64,000 bases of DNA. Origin: an uncultured Kordia sp. (GTDB lineage Bacteria > Bacteroidota > Bacteroidia > Flavobacteriales > Flavobacteriaceae). A program made the translations under genes and the position numbers. The notes beneath the pieces were generated by a model that ran no database searches, was not told where the DNA came from, and worked only from the letters and a program-made list of their open reading frames with translations. The stretch spans positions 62,001 to 126,000 of the forward strand of contig NZ_CANMEZ010000009.1 of NCBI RefSeq assembly GCF_947496985.1, in the 5' to 3' direction. Positions within the stretch are counted from its first letter, which is position 1. Every line of letters starts with the position of its first letter. Positions 5,141-29,326 of the stretch are shown one piece after another.

Positions 5141-5689
5141 ATGAATAGAAATAGCACAGATGCTGAATTACAAGATTTATTAAGATCTGATGATAAGAAG
5201 GCGCTTGAGACTATATATGTGAAATACAAGAATGAGTTTCTAAACTATGCCAAAAAGTATGGTTTGGATACGTACAATGCAACAGATATTTATCAAGATG
5301 CAATCATCGCAATGCATCATAACTTTGTTTCATCACAATTAGTAATTACTTCAAGCTCTATCAAAACCTATTTATTTGGTATTGGGAAATTTAAAATTTT
5401 AAAAAAGTTAAAAGAAGAACAAAAATTTTTAAATGTTGAAGCAAAAGAAGAAGATACATATACAGAAACACGTATAGAAGAATTAGAACCATCTGAACAA
5501 TCAATTACTTTAAGTAAAAACTTGGATAAGATGTCTGAAAGTTGTAGAAAAGTTTTAGAACTGTTTTATTATCGAAACTTAACAGTAGAAGAAATTGTAC
5601 AACTTACAGATTACAAAGATGGAAATACTGTTCGAAGTCATAAGTCGCGATGTTTAAAACGTTTAAAATCTTTATTTAAAATTAAATAA
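5141..5689 (+). CDS. ECF-type RNA polymerase sigma factor (sigma-70 family)
   Basis: A 182-residue protein with the two-domain layout of extracytoplasmic-function sigma factors: region 2 at about 25-95 (core-binding and -10 recognition, with DIYQDAIIAM) and region 4 helix-turn-helix at about 125-178 (LELFYYRNLTVEEIV through VRSHKSRCLKRLK). It would direct RNA polymerase to a small regulon. The stop codon TAA overlaps the ATG of the next gene by one base, so the two are translationally coupled, the usual arrangement of a sigma factor with its regulator. The exported cluster at 1139-5035 diverges from it. Confidence 0.9.
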   Translation: MNRNSTDAELQDLLRSDDKKALETIYVKYKNEFLNYAKKYGLDTYNATDIYQDAIIAMHHNFVSSQLVITSSSIKTYLFGIGKFKILKKLKEEQKFLNVEAKEEDTYTETRIEELEPSEQSITLSKNLDKMSESCRKVLELFYYRNLTVEEIVQLTDYKDGNTVRSHKSRCLKRLKSLFKIK

Positions 5690-6411
5690 TGGATAAAGAA
5701 AAATTCATACAAAATTATATAGCCAATCGCCTGTCTGAAGAAGAAAAGGCTAACGTAGAAGCTTTACTTGAAACAGATGCTGAAATGCAAGACTTGTATG
5801 AAACGCACAAGGAAATGGCTGCTGCGTTTCAATTATCTAATAAAAAAGCTATAAAGAAGCGTTTACAAGCATTAGATACTGAAGAAACTGGTTCTAAAAG
5901 GAAAGGTTTTTTTCAAAATAATTATAGTAAAATAGCCATTGTAGCTGTTTTTATTTTGGGTGTATTTTTTATGATTAATGTATTAAAGTCAGATGGCAAT
6001 TTATATGATTCTTATTTTGAAATTTGCCCCAATACCTATCTTCCTGTAACAAGAGGTGATTATCAAGATACATTAGAGTTTGAAGCGTTTAAATCTTATG
6101 AAAGCGCAGATTTTAAAACGGCAGAAACAACTTTCAATACTATTTTAAAAACGGATACAAATCCTACGATTCAATTTTATTACGCGATGTCTTTATTAAA
6201 TCAAGATAAACTTGATGAAGCTTTAACGCAATTACAGATATTGAATACAAAAACCTTCGATTACCAACTAGAATCACTTTGGTATACGGCATTAATTCAA
6301 ATTAAAAATAAAGATGTAGTAAGTGCTGAAAAGCATTTGAATGCTATTCAACAGTTAGATTCAGTTTTCAAAACTAAAGAAATTCAAGCGATCCTTAATA
6401 CATTTCCATAG
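5689..6411 (+). CDS. membrane TPR protein, probable anti-sigma partner
   Basis: A 240-residue protein with an N-terminal cytoplasmic region of about 80 residues whose opening (MDKEKFIQNYIANRLSEEEK) resembles the zinc-less anti-sigma N-terminus common in Flavobacteriia. A single transmembrane helix (about 82-99) and a periplasmic C-terminal part of about 140 residues with tetratricopeptide-like helices (YYAMSLLNQDKLDEAL and similar) follow. It overlaps the sigma gene by 1 nt. The likely role is membrane sequestration and signal-dependent release of the sigma factor; this follows from arrangement and topology, not from a diagnostic motif. Confidence 0.7.
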   Translation: MDKEKFIQNYIANRLSEEEKANVEALLETDAEMQDLYETHKEMAAAFQLSNKKAIKKRLQALDTEETGSKRKGFFQNNYSKIAIVAVFILGVFFMINVLKSDGNLYDSYFEICPNTYLPVTRGDYQDTLEFEAFKSYESADFKTAETTFNTILKTDTNPTIQFYYAMSLLNQDKLDEALTQLQILNTKTFDYQLESLWYTALIQIKNKDVVSAEKHLNAIQQLDSVFKTKEIQAILNTFP

Positions 6412-6587: not shown

Positions 6588-6821
6588 ATGAAAAAAAAGA
6601 ATCTTAAATCATTAAGTTTTAACAAATCAAAAGTAAGTTTATTAGGAAGTAAAAACCTCACTGGTGGTTTGTGGCCAAATACAGGTTGGTTTTGTCATTC
6701 AGATATGTCTGAGTGTTTATGTTCTGGAGTACCAGGTTGTCCAATGCCATTAAATACAAACGAAGGACCATGTCCAAGTGGAAGTATAGGTTGTAATACT
6801 ACAACAAACATGGAACCATAA
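6588..6821 (+). CDS. Cys-rich RiPP precursor peptide, class I lanthipeptide-like
   Basis: A 77-residue peptide. The leader (residues 1-27) is MKKKNLKSLSFNKSKVSLL followed by a stretch ending in Thr-Gly-Gly at 25-27. It matches the Lys/Leu/Ser-rich, double-glycine leaders of the Bacteroidota natural-product precursor family (TIGR04149-like, often annotated class I lanthipeptide). The 50-residue core holds six Cys (36, 43, 45, 51, 62, 69) and many Ser, Thr, Gly and Pro. The GG motif predicts cleavage by a C39 peptidase-transporter. No dehydratase, cyclase, radical SAM maturase or ABC exporter lies in the window except the unrelated lipA, so it is an orphan precursor here. Whether it is modified with lanthionines or just disulfide-bonded is unknown. 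It follows the sigma/TPR pair by 176 nt. Confidence 0.72.
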   Translation: MKKKNLKSLSFNKSKVSLLGSKNLTGGLWPNTGWFCHSDMSECLCSGVPGCPMPLNTNEGPCPSGSIGCNTTTNMEP

Positions 6822-7133
6822 AAATTTAAGATATATAATACCATTTATGTAATTTTATAAAATGGTGTAAAAATCAAATGTAGGCTGTTTAAAAAGAGGA
6901 GGAGAACACTATTCTAACTTTTATCAACTTGATTCAAAATTCAGTTCAGAGTGATATCTTTTAAATTTTTAGACAGCTTATTTTCATTTCTTTAAAGTAT
7001 ATTAGTTTTCCTTAACCTTTCAGGAAAAACGCCCATTTAAGTCCCAATTCTTTTAGTTTCAATAATACAGGATATTCAAAACTCTTATACATAATAAGTT
7101 TGTAATGCGTATTAATCAGAAACTAAAATACTC
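6822..7133 (+). other. intergenic region with hairpin and MITE-like repeat
   Basis: No gene seen in these 312 bases. They contain an AT-rich hairpin just after the peptide gene (arms ACCATTT at 6840-6846 and AAATGGT at 6860-6866, without a clear T-run) and the 100-bp inverted-repeat element at 6881-6980 described separately. The last 100 bases presumably hold the promoter of the beta-helix gene; I cannot place a clear TAnnTTTG box. Confidence 0.5.
6881..6980. mobile_element. MITE-like 100-bp element with 15-bp terminal inverted repeats
   Basis: The ends TAGGCTGTTTAAAAA (6881-6895) and TTTTTAGACAGCTTA (6966-6980) are inverted copies matching at 13 of 15 positions. The GGCTGTCTAAAAA-type terminus resembles insertion-sequence ends seen in Bacteroidota. 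The interior is too short for a transposase, so this may be a non-autonomous miniature element or a solo remnant. No obvious target-site duplication could be confirmed by eye. Confidence 0.45.
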
Positions 7134-8964: not shown

Positions 8965-9558
8965 TTGAATTTGAGGAGTGACCTTGGATTTGTGAATAAT
9001 ATCAACAAAAATGATAACAATTTGAATTCTAAAGAACAAAACTCAACAACACTTCAATCAATAGATGATTTAATCACCGCTCTTTGTGAAGAAGAGAGGA
9101 CGACATACAATCACATAATCCGTTCCATAAATTTACCAAGTGAAGCTTTCAAGAACTATTGCTCATGGTCTAATACTTGTTATACGCGTAACTGTATTGC
9201 TGAAAATGAGAAGTTTGAATTGATCTTATTATGTTGGGAAAAAGGACAAAAAACACCTATTCATGATCATGGAGGCGAAGAATGTTGGGTGAAAATTATT
9301 GAAGGCGAATTTAGAGAAACTATATACCAAAAAGATGAAACTGGCACACTTGCTAGTGTTACTTCAACAATTTCAAAAGTAAATGACATTTCGTACATGA
9401 TAGATTTCATGGGATATCATTGCTTAGAAAATCTTTCAGAAAAAAGAAGTATGTCTCTTCATCTATATGCAAAACCTATAAGTAATTGTAATGTTTTTGA
9501 TGAAAAATCGAACAAAATCATCAATAAAGAGTTAAGCTACGATACGATTGCTAGATAA
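8965..9558 (+). CDS. cysteine dioxygenase (cupin family)
   Basis: A 197-residue cupin that oxidises L-cysteine to cysteine sulfinic acid with a non-haem iron. In numbering from the TTG start the metal ligands are His100 and His102 (PIHDHGGEEC) and His152 (GYHCLENLS). Cys107 aligns with the Cys of the mammalian Cys-Tyr cofactor (HDH then C five residues on), and Tyr168 in SLHLYAKP matches the partner Tyr. Length is typical of the family. There is no in-frame ATG upstream: the start is TTG at 8965 or GTG at 8992. The next gene follows after 23 nt and encodes a PLP decarboxylase that could use the product, giving hypotaurine. A -7 box lies at 8918-8925. Confidence 0.9.
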   Translation: MNLRSDLGFVNNINKNDNNLNSKEQNSTTLQSIDDLITALCEEERTTYNHIIRSINLPSEAFKNYCSWSNTCYTRNCIAENEKFELILLCWEKGQKTPIHDHGGEECWVKIIEGEFRETIYQKDETGTLASVTSTISKVNDISYMIDFMGYHCLENLSEKRSMSLHLYAKPISNCNVFDEKSNKIINKELSYDTIAR

Positions 9559-9581
9559 ACAACAACTAAAAAACAAATTGA

Positions 9582-10985
9582 ATGGCTGATATGAATAATG
9601 ATATCACTTTATTTAATGAACTTATTGAAATTTTATTAAATGAAGAAAAGAAGAATCCAGTTGCAGACCGAATAGAAGCAAACAAATTATATGCTTCACT
9701 TGACCTCTCGTTAAATGAGTCTCCAATGGTAGATGATGAATTTAAAACGGCACTTCGAGATGTTGTCATATCTACTCCAAAAACAGCGACAAACTTATTT
9801 TTTAACCAATTATTTGGAGGGAGACAAAGCAAAGCCGTTTTAGGTGATTTATTAGCAGTAATGCTAAATAATAGTATGTATACTTATAAAGTAGCAGGTC
9901 CTCAAGTTGGTATTGAGCAAGAAATTATAAGAAAGTCATGTGAGTTAATTGGTTATGGACCACAGAGTAATGGAACATTTCCAACTGGAGGTTCTATGAG
10001 TAATTATATGGCGTTGGTAATGGCAAGAGATGCAAAAGATCCAGCATGTAGATCTAAAGGAATGACAAAGCCGATGGTAATATATACTTCTAAAGAATCA
10101 CATTATTCAAACGCTAAAAACACAAGCTTTACAGGAATAGGTAAAGATAATATTAGGTATATTGAAGCTGATGAAACAGGAAGAATGATTCCTGAAAAGT
10201 TAGAAGCAACAGTGATTGAAGATATAAAAAATGGATTTGTGCCAACGTATGTAAATGCTACGGCAGGAACCACTGTTTTAGGTGCTTTTGACCCAATAGA
10301 CAAACTTGCAGATATTACTGAAAAATATGACATGTGGTTACATGTTGATGGTGCTTATTGTGGAAGTGTAATTTTCAGTGAAGCCTACAAACATTTATTA
10401 AAAGGTGTAGAAAGATCAAATTCATTCAGTTACAATGCGCACAAAATGCTTGGCACACCTTTAACATGTTCTATTATTTTAGTTAACGATAAAAAGCATT
10501 TACACAATTCGTTTAGTAATGACGCTGATTATTTGTATCAAACAGATGGAGATGATTTCAACTTAGGTAAAACTTCATTCCAGTGTGGAAGAAGAAATGA
10601 TGCATTAAAATTTTGGACACTTTGGAAATCTGTTGGAACAAGTGGTTTAACACAAATTGTAAATCAGCAATTTGAATTAGCAAATGTTGCCCGTAACTAT
10701 GTCAAAAATCATCCTGACTATACTTTATATAGTTTTGAAGATTCAATTTCTATATGTTTTAATTACAAAAACATCGATCCAACAACTTTATGTACTGTAT
10801 TGTATGAACATCAAGTTACGGTGGTAGGTTTTGGTTCTTTTAAAGAAGATACTTTCGTAAGATTGGTTACTGTAAACGCAAATAATACAACGCAAGATAT
10901 ATTGCATTTCTTTAAAGTATTAGAAACATTTGTAGAAGAAAACCCAAGTGTATTTGAAACTAAAGATGAAGCAATCAATATATAA
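9582..10985 (+). CDS. group II PLP-dependent decarboxylase, probable cysteine sulfinate decarboxylase
   Basis: A 467-residue member of the glutamate/aspartate/cysteine-sulfinate decarboxylase family. Landmarks are the stacking His174 in SKESHYS, Asp256 in LHVDGAYCG, and the PLP-binding Lys288 in NAHKMLG. The TGGSMSNYMAL segment (136-145) forms part of the cofactor site. Family membership is firm; substrate is not readable from motifs. Its position 23 nt downstream of cysteine dioxygenase argues for cysteine sulfinate, giving hypotaurine and eventually taurine, but aspartate or glutamate remain possible. The gene ends before a strong bidirectional hairpin at 11048-11083, closing a two-gene operon. 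Confidence 0.87.
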   Translation: MADMNNDITLFNELIEILLNEEKKNPVADRIEANKLYASLDLSLNESPMVDDEFKTALRDVVISTPKTATNLFFNQLFGGRQSKAVLGDLLAVMLNNSMYTYKVAGPQVGIEQEIIRKSCELIGYGPQSNGTFPTGGSMSNYMALVMARDAKDPACRSKGMTKPMVIYTSKESHYSNAKNTSFTGIGKDNIRYIEADETGRMIPEKLEATVIEDIKNGFVPTYVNATAGTTVLGAFDPIDKLADITEKYDMWLHVDGAYCGSVIFSEAYKHLLKGVERSNSFSYNAHKMLGTPLTCSIILVNDKKHLHNSFSNDADYLYQTDGDDFNLGKTSFQCGRRNDALKFWTLWKSVGTSGLTQIVNQQFELANVARNYVKNHPDYTLYSFEDSISICFNYKNIDPTTLCTVLYEHQVTVVGFGSFKEDTFVRLVTVNANNTTQDILHFFKVLETFVEENPSVFETKDEAINI

Positions 10986-28450: not shown

Positions 28451-29326
28451 TTACTCAATATGTTTATGTGCTTTGTATGACGAACGTACCAATGCACCAC
28501 TTTCTACATGACGGAATCCTAAGTCCAATCCGATTCGGCGGTATTTGTCAAACTGATCTGGTGTAATGAATTGCTGAACAGGTAAATGCTTTTTACTTGG
28601 TTGTAAGTATTGCCCAATCGTAACGACATCTACATTCGCTTCACTCAAATCGTGTAATGTTTGAATGACTTCTTCTTCTTTTTCACCCAAACCTAACATA
28701 ATCCCTGATTTGGTTCTGTTGATTCCTTGATCTTTTAAATATTTTAAAACACCTAAGCTACGATCGTATTTTGCTTGAATTCTTACTTCACGCGTTAAAC
28801 GACGTACGGTTTCCATATTATGCGAAACTACTTCTGGAGCTACTTCTACAATACGATCTAAATGACGTTCAACACCTTGAAAATCTGGTATTAATGTTTC
28901 TAAGGTAGTCGTAGGATTCATTCGGCGTACAGCCTTTACCGTTTCTGCCCAAATGATACTTCCCATATCTTTTAAATCATCACGATCAACCGAAGTCAAA
29001 ACTGCATGCTTAATTTTCATGATTTTAATAGAACGCGCTACTTTCTCAGGCTCGTCCCAAGCAACCGTCTCTGGTCGTCCAGTTTTTACACCACAAAATC
29101 CGCATGAGCGTGTACATACATTTCCTAAAATCATAAAGGTTGCTGTTCCTTCTCCCCAACATTCGCCCATATTCGGACAACTTCCAGACGTACAAATGGT
29201 ATTCAATTTATACTTATCAACCAATCCACGAAGTTCTGTATATTTCTTTCCTGTTGGAAGTTTTACACGAAGCCATTTCGGTTTTCCTTTAGGAGGCAAC
29301 ACACTTGCTTTTGTTTCTATACTCAT
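28451..29326 (-). CDS. lipA: lipoyl synthase
   Basis: A 291-residue radical SAM enzyme that inserts two sulfur atoms into octanoylated lipoyl domains of the 2-oxoacid dehydrogenases and the glycine cleavage system. The auxiliary cluster Cys45, Cys50 and Cys56 ([12 protein letters not shown]) and the radical SAM cluster Cys71, Cys75 and Cys78 (CTRSCGFC) are intact, as is the C-terminal RSSYKAHKH with its conserved Ser ligand. Length is normal. It stands alone on the minus strand; an upstream gap of 150 nt separates it from the transporter operon. Confidence 0.96.

Follow-up and report, generated by a model that had tools for sequence, protein, structure and literature searches.

How is a peptide matured that carries a double-glycine leader and a cysteine-rich core, if no modification enzyme or exporter is encoded in its vicinity? 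This question is raised by a gene located in the window, the 64,000-nucleotide stretch of Kordia DNA analysed here, which corresponds to positions 62001-126000 of contig C9 in a genome of 5.48 Mb on 61 contigs. The gene (6588..6821, plus strand, stop codon included) starts with ATG and encodes 77 amino acids. It consists of a 27-residue leader (6588..6668, plus strand), which is rich in Lys, Leu and Ser and ends with Gly26-Gly27, and a Ser/Thr-rich core of 50 residues (6669..6818, plus strand); reading of the ORF thereby bears out the description of the peptide in the original prediction. The core, assigned on the basis of a spacing test and of positions conserved among related cores (see below), contains six Cys (36, 43, 45, 51, 62 and 69), five Ser and five Thr. 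In the leader the series L9-S-F11-N-K13-x5-L19 fits the motif LxLxKx5L, with Phe replacing the second Leu. This motif, a GG end and C39 proteases encoded in the clusters have been described for class I leaders of Bacteroidetes (Walker et al., 2020, PMC7268733). The leader is the predicted recognition part for LanB and C39. A short inverted repeat, its 7-base arms matching perfectly, is found 3′ of the stop codon (6840-6866) and could be a weak terminator.

The window gene is a genuine gene. Homologues of the peptide keep conserved cores in other genomes of the genus (G007, 65% identity; G003, 68%; G009, 50%), which shows that the ORF is coding and not a chance frame; a Pfam search with the peptide gave no relevant match. 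In the comparison with G007, 37 of 48 aligned core residues (77%) are identical, whereas the leaders are 44% identical. Fifteen of the 37 identical residues use a different codon, core dN is 0.22 and core dS is 1.39; by this comparison the core is under purifying selection. The G007 homologue (L164:7985-8209) combines a near-identical core with a leader clearly different from that of the window gene, as if leaders and cores were exchangeable. A rule that cores are always more variable than leaders was discarded, since the results were mixed: the core is more conserved in the comparison with G007, the leader in the comparisons with C15b and G003.

Altogether, the core family has six members, the window copy on C9, two copies on contig C15 of the same genome and one each in G003, G007 and G009. 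C51, T57, E59-G60-P61-C62-P63, G65, G68 and C69 are invariant in all six, and position 66 is either Ser or Thr. Weak matches in the genus (G002:C1 and G007:C7) proved to be precursors with other cores, and a match in an Opitutia MAG (L243) was rejected as a chance match, since its frame lacks a leader and offers the GPCPSG match no partner Cys. The core family was also compared with PDB sequences; the five matches (best E 0.18, Frizzled-4) led nowhere.

To which class does the leader belong? The profile NF038153 (lant_leader_L1a) gives the window peptide 11.8 bits, which is below the curated cut-off of 22, so that by NCBI's rule the peptide is not filed under this profile. This weak score is answered by two observations: all four LanB-adjacent precursors that were scanned also miss the cut-off (16.5-21.3 bits), and an independent profile, built from 16 leaders adjoining LanB in 12 genomes from outside the genus (chosen by regular expression and by eye), gives the window peptide 18.6 bits. 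With the latter profile the next best among 565 window ORFs reached 4.9 bits, and none of 2,000 leader shuffles reached 18.6 bits (best shuffle 7.9). It also gives at least 10 bits for 221 of the 230 precursors that we counted in the genome (see below), the other nine lying under 10. The window peptide is most likely a Bacteroidota class I lanthipeptide precursor of the LxLxKx5L/GG type, in line with the class I lanthipeptide-like reading proposed earlier from its GG leader. A lack of homologous leaders elsewhere had been named as an argument against that reading; such leaders are common in the genome and the genus, and they also occur in the family sample.

No match to LanB, LanC or C39 (Pfam PF04738, PF05147 and PF03412) was found on contig C9. 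A scan for CxxxCxxC in window ORFs of more than 220 amino acids yielded only 28451-29326, which was read as a lipoyl synthase. Thus, the predicted lack of LanB/LanC, a radical SAM maturase and a C39 exporter near the peptide holds for the whole contig and, as regards a radical SAM maturase, for window ORFs above that size. In the genome as a whole there is one match to LanB (contig C1); LanC-like proteins and C39 give four matches each, of which two for C39 are strong, and further precursors are present. All of these maturation genes are located on contigs other than C9, as expected from the original prediction that the peptide would need enzymes in trans.

The LanB locus on contig C1 encodes, in this order, an ECF sigma factor, a TPR-containing membrane protein, LanC, LanB and a separate LanB C-terminal-domain protein, followed by a TPR-AraC protein, precursors, an HlyD-type protein and a C39-ABC exporter. 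Its precursors carry the same leader type as the window peptide. Gene lengths and order recur in G004, G006, G009 and G010 on ORF reading, G006 having a second TPR-sized gene, and each of the 11 genus genomes has exactly one LanB match. The ECF sigma factor and TPR membrane protein directly before LanC/LanB (L060:4064-5424 and the corresponding position in L200-L203) resemble the pair before the window peptide and possibly control the LanB locus. A second LanC, encoded on contig C15, is accompanied by a protein with a nucleotidyltransferase domain and by three Cys-rich precursors that resemble one another (L062:4759-7977), an arrangement that fits a Kordia locus described in PMC11118758. On contig C5 a LanC-like protein of 626 amino acids (L067:4312-6192) is encoded beside a large ORF read as adenylation/NRPS-type, with a small GG-leader peptide nearby. 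The LanC search of the genome placed a LanC-like ORF of 640 amino acids at C5:310319.

Does the leader type go together with LanB in other genera? Of 249 sampled genomes of the family, 15 have any leader match (E up to 0.01), and two of these belong to this genus. Outside the genus LanB was found in 10 of 13 leader-positive genomes compared with 5 of 56 leader-negative ones (p 2e-6), the 56 being the first in numbering of 234 leader-negative genomes. In eight of the ten leader-positive genomes with LanB, the distance between LanB and a leader match is no more than 5 kb. The three leader-positive genomes without LanB comprise two with weak matches (E 0.002 and 0.008) and one with a match at E 3.5e-7 (G199). 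On reading, four of the five leader-negative genomes with LanB show a leader-like peptide near LanB, which means that negative here stands for below the profile threshold.

Searches of the genome gave 110 matches with the window peptide as query (E up to 10), chiefly across the leader, and 131 with NF038153 (E up to 1). Each of the 11 genus genomes has at least 110 leader matches (E up to 0.001). Precursors were counted with a regular expression in 100 regions (639 kb), 99 around leader/TIGR04149 matches and LanB/LanC/C39 places plus the window. Strict filtering of 243 raw ORFs left 226 (17 set aside), and four were restored by eye. This gives about 230 precursors, all 230 of them distinct, a number that is a lower bound and may include a few false entries. 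The peptide, which had been called an orphan, is one within the window and on contig C9, but genome-wide it is one of about 230 precursors. Their leader consensus is MKK[K/R]NLKxLxLNKxx[I/V]SNL...GG; the leader ends with GG in 219 and with GA in seven, and the four precursors without GG or GA in the expected span were left out of the core counts. The remaining 226 cores (median 44 amino acids and 5 Cys) form 166 clusters, 147 of which are singletons, the largest having 32 members. The precursors of the genome share one leader type, and their cores are mostly unrelated. A shared promoter was not detected: TAnnTTTG is found upstream of 47 of 230 precursors versus 82 of 241 controls and is not enriched. 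Some AT-rich 8-mers are enriched upstream of precursors.

Spacings of 3-6 residues correspond to the lanthionine rings of known class I peptides such as nisin. The 166 non-redundant cores contain 807 Cys. A Ser or Thr precedes 739 of these at a distance of 3-6 residues; shuffles give 440, and for the C-terminal side the number is 416. If each Ser/Thr is used only once, the numbers are 737 versus 406 (s.d. 14) in shuffles and 404 on the C-terminal side. Position −2 relative to Cys is depleted in Ser/Thr, position +2 is enriched. Ser/Thr is present two residues after Cys at 0.33 versus 0.20 in shuffles, and Cys-x-Thr/Ser repeats occur in the cores. Moreover, Ser plus Thr at least equals Cys in 224 of the 226 cores, 102 of the 226 have an odd number of Cys, and Thr reaches 13.0%, twice the background of 6.3%. 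The family-wide Ser/Thr-Cys spacing fits lanthionine rings. The asymmetry is milder in nine LanB-adjacent precursors from other genera, with 38 of 46 Cys paired versus 27 of 46 on the mirror side. In the window core all six Cys pair with a Ser/Thr 3-6 residues upstream; five of six do so on the mirror side, and 28 and 17 of 2,000 shuffles (two counts) pair all six. On these figures the window core, taken by itself, gives weak evidence of rings, and it is the family that carries the argument. Possible candidate rings are T32-C36, S38-C43, S41-C45, S46-C51, T57-C62 and S64 or S66 with C69.

Upstream of the window gene lie genes for an ECF sigma factor (5141..5689, plus strand; TIGR02937 over cut-off) and for a membrane protein with a TPR-like, anti-sigma-like part (5689..6411, plus strand; TPR and anti-sigma matches below cut-off), which has one transmembrane segment at residues 81-99. 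Seven genus genomes (G002 and G004-G009; 51-63% identity) have orthologues of the pair, with the same divergent upstream gene. In none of these seven relatives was a precursor seen in the 1.5 kb downstream of the pair, and the beta-helix gene is likewise absent from that stretch. Because the relatives keep the pair without the peptide, the pair is not the conserved regulator of the window peptide. Control of its production by the adjacent ECF/TPR pair, as originally suggested, is therefore unsupported and was dropped, and both genes were judged not to be part of the system. On the other side of the peptide gene, a cysteine dioxygenase (PF05995) followed by a pyridoxal-dependent decarboxylase (PF00282) is encoded at 8965-10985; going by these domains, the two proteins together could yield hypotaurine from cysteine.

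The core relatives on C15 of the same genome, in G007 and in G003 lie downstream of a gene that is about 570-610 codons long. The encoded protein is TPR-AraC according to Pfam in G007, according to homology on C15, and according to position and length only in G003. The G003 homologue sits at the site matching C15, before a gene read as nitroreductase-like, and in G009 a TPR-AraC gene is found near the core relative on the opposite strand. Contig C9 has no TPR-AraC match, while the genome has 47. The window copy is solitary: it occupies a variable site, and the ECF/TPR pair in front of it is unrelated. Either the peptide moved into this site, or the relatives lack it through seven separate losses or one in an ancestor.

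The TPR-AraC matches were obtained with the protein of the LanB locus as query and were reduced from 47 to 38 (eight short HTH-only matches were dropped and two pieces of one gene joined). Of the 38, 22 are followed by a precursor in the same orientation at a distance of up to 600 bp, and 20 at up to 300 bp; random placement on the same contigs gave a mean of 0.5 and a maximum of 4 in 2,000 trials, against the 22 observed. Among the 16 uncounted proteins, one has a precursor on the opposite strand at 398 bp, and some have precursors at 1.7-2.9 kb. All six TPR-AraC proteins examined have a transmembrane segment near residues 389-412, between the TPR and AraC parts, and in three of the six an N-terminal hydrophobic segment exceeds our threshold. 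We hypothesise that TPR-AraC proteins are putative membrane receptors, the partner peptide of each being its downstream neighbour. The window peptide is not part of such a pair. In an extended picture, one LanB would mature about 230 peptides, and dozens of TPR-AraC receptors, each with a precursor about 100 bp downstream, would sense mature lanthipeptides and switch on arrays, so that many lanthipeptide-receptor signalling pairs would be layered over the peptide library. We regard this picture as tentative and on balance doubtful.

For the window peptide itself the likely reading, in our view, is a class I lanthipeptide precursor that the distant LanB/LanC mature in trans and a C39 system exports. 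Maturation in trans is supported; modification by the C1 LanB, the ring pattern, export and activity are what we infer from sequence. The LxFxKx5L leader would be bound by the genome's only LanB, a split enzyme with a separate C-terminal-domain protein, encoded on contig C1. Ser and Thr of the core would then be dehydrated, and LanC would close thioether rings onto Cys 3-6 positions downstream. The C39-domain ABC exporter encoded beside LanB would cut after Gly27 and export the cyclic core with its HlyD-type partner. Core relatives reside in arrays behind TPR-AraC, and the window copy may be a displaced one, a direction of movement that we infer. Against the route via the C1 LanB, the other LanC genes and the LanC/nucleotidyltransferase locus leave room for other enzymes.

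It is unlikely that the gene is a decaying stray copy, a precursor separated from its array and regulator and no longer used. Such a history would agree with the position of the relatives behind TPR-AraC on C15 and in G007, with the lack of TPR-AraC on contig C9 and with the absence of the peptide at the orthologous site in seven relatives. However, the frame, the leader motif, the GG and all Cys/Ser/Thr pairs are intact, and core dN is far below dS against G007, though much of this divergence may predate a move. The GG leader, the Cys-rich core and the C39-ABC exporter in the genome would also suit a microcin-like double-glycine peptide, unmodified or disulfide-bonded, which is cleaved and exported by C39 without LanB. 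We judge this quite improbable: the leader type tracks LanB across genera, Ser/Thr is favoured 3-6 residues before Cys and not after, Thr is raised above background, and nearly half of the cores have an odd number of Cys.

The possibility that the peptide is instead modified by a radical SAM enzyme (TIGR04149 type) appears very remote to us. Radical-SAM-modified as well as lanthipeptide clusters are reported for Kordia in PMC11118758, and TIGR04149 weakly matches 13 other precursors of the genome. None of the 13 exceeds the cut-off of 25 bits, and the window peptide gave no match, so that the profile search recommended with the original prediction came out negative. In the 100 precursor regions, the CxxxCxxC scan found two ORFs, read as ArsS-like and lipoyl synthase-like. 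This reading was dropped in favour of a class I lanthipeptide precursor.

How does such a precursor compare with known systems? It belongs to a type already described, and the RiPP richness of Kordia is in print (PMC11118758). With the precursors described in PMC7268733 it shares the leader motif, the GG end, a Ser/Thr/Cys-rich core and a C39 protease in the LanB locus. In contrast to them, the window gene lies outside the LanB/LanC cluster, is one of about 230 scattered precursors and scores below the NF038153 cut-off. The pinensins of Chitinophaga, named in the same paper, are also Bacteroidota class I products with a split LanB, but their precursors are clustered; the comparison with the window peptide is by description only. 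For other Bacteroidota, co-expression that included GluRS and tRNA-Glu of the producer is reported in PMC9993889. Prochlorosins and synechococsins (class II, ProcM/SyncM), with up to 83 precursors per genome (PMC10783134), are similar in having many scattered or tandem precursors, a common GG leader and one enzyme; they differ in using class II LanM and a Nif11-type leader, whereas Kordia has class I LanB/LanC and an unrelated leader.

Kordia is described as RiPP-rich in PMC11118758, which gives up to 176 precursors per genome for Bacteroidota and presents the Kordia LanC/nucleotidyltransferase locus, and a LanB/LanC/LanA cluster of K. algicida is reported in PMC3091789. Many biosynthetic clusters in Kordia are also mentioned in PMC10734526, PMC7477175 and PMC9248904. 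The genus, its precursor richness and the LanB/LanC cluster are thus shared with our case, whereas a single LanB for scattered precursors, the Ser/Thr-Cys spacing and the TPR-AraC pairing are not stated in the available text of PMC11118758 and PMC3091789. Nor were the single-LanB trans arrangement, the spacing rule or a recognised TPR-AraC/RiPP-precursor system found in the main texts of open PMC papers.

If maturation in trans by the single LanB is true, most lanthipeptide precursors of Kordia would lie outside the clusters that mining tools inspect. One class I dehydratase would then accept hundreds of natural cores, and the prochlorosins would have a class I counterpart. A concrete hypothesis on signalling comes from those TPR-AraC proteins that have a precursor as neighbour, and, lanB being single-copy, the purpose of such libraries would become testable.
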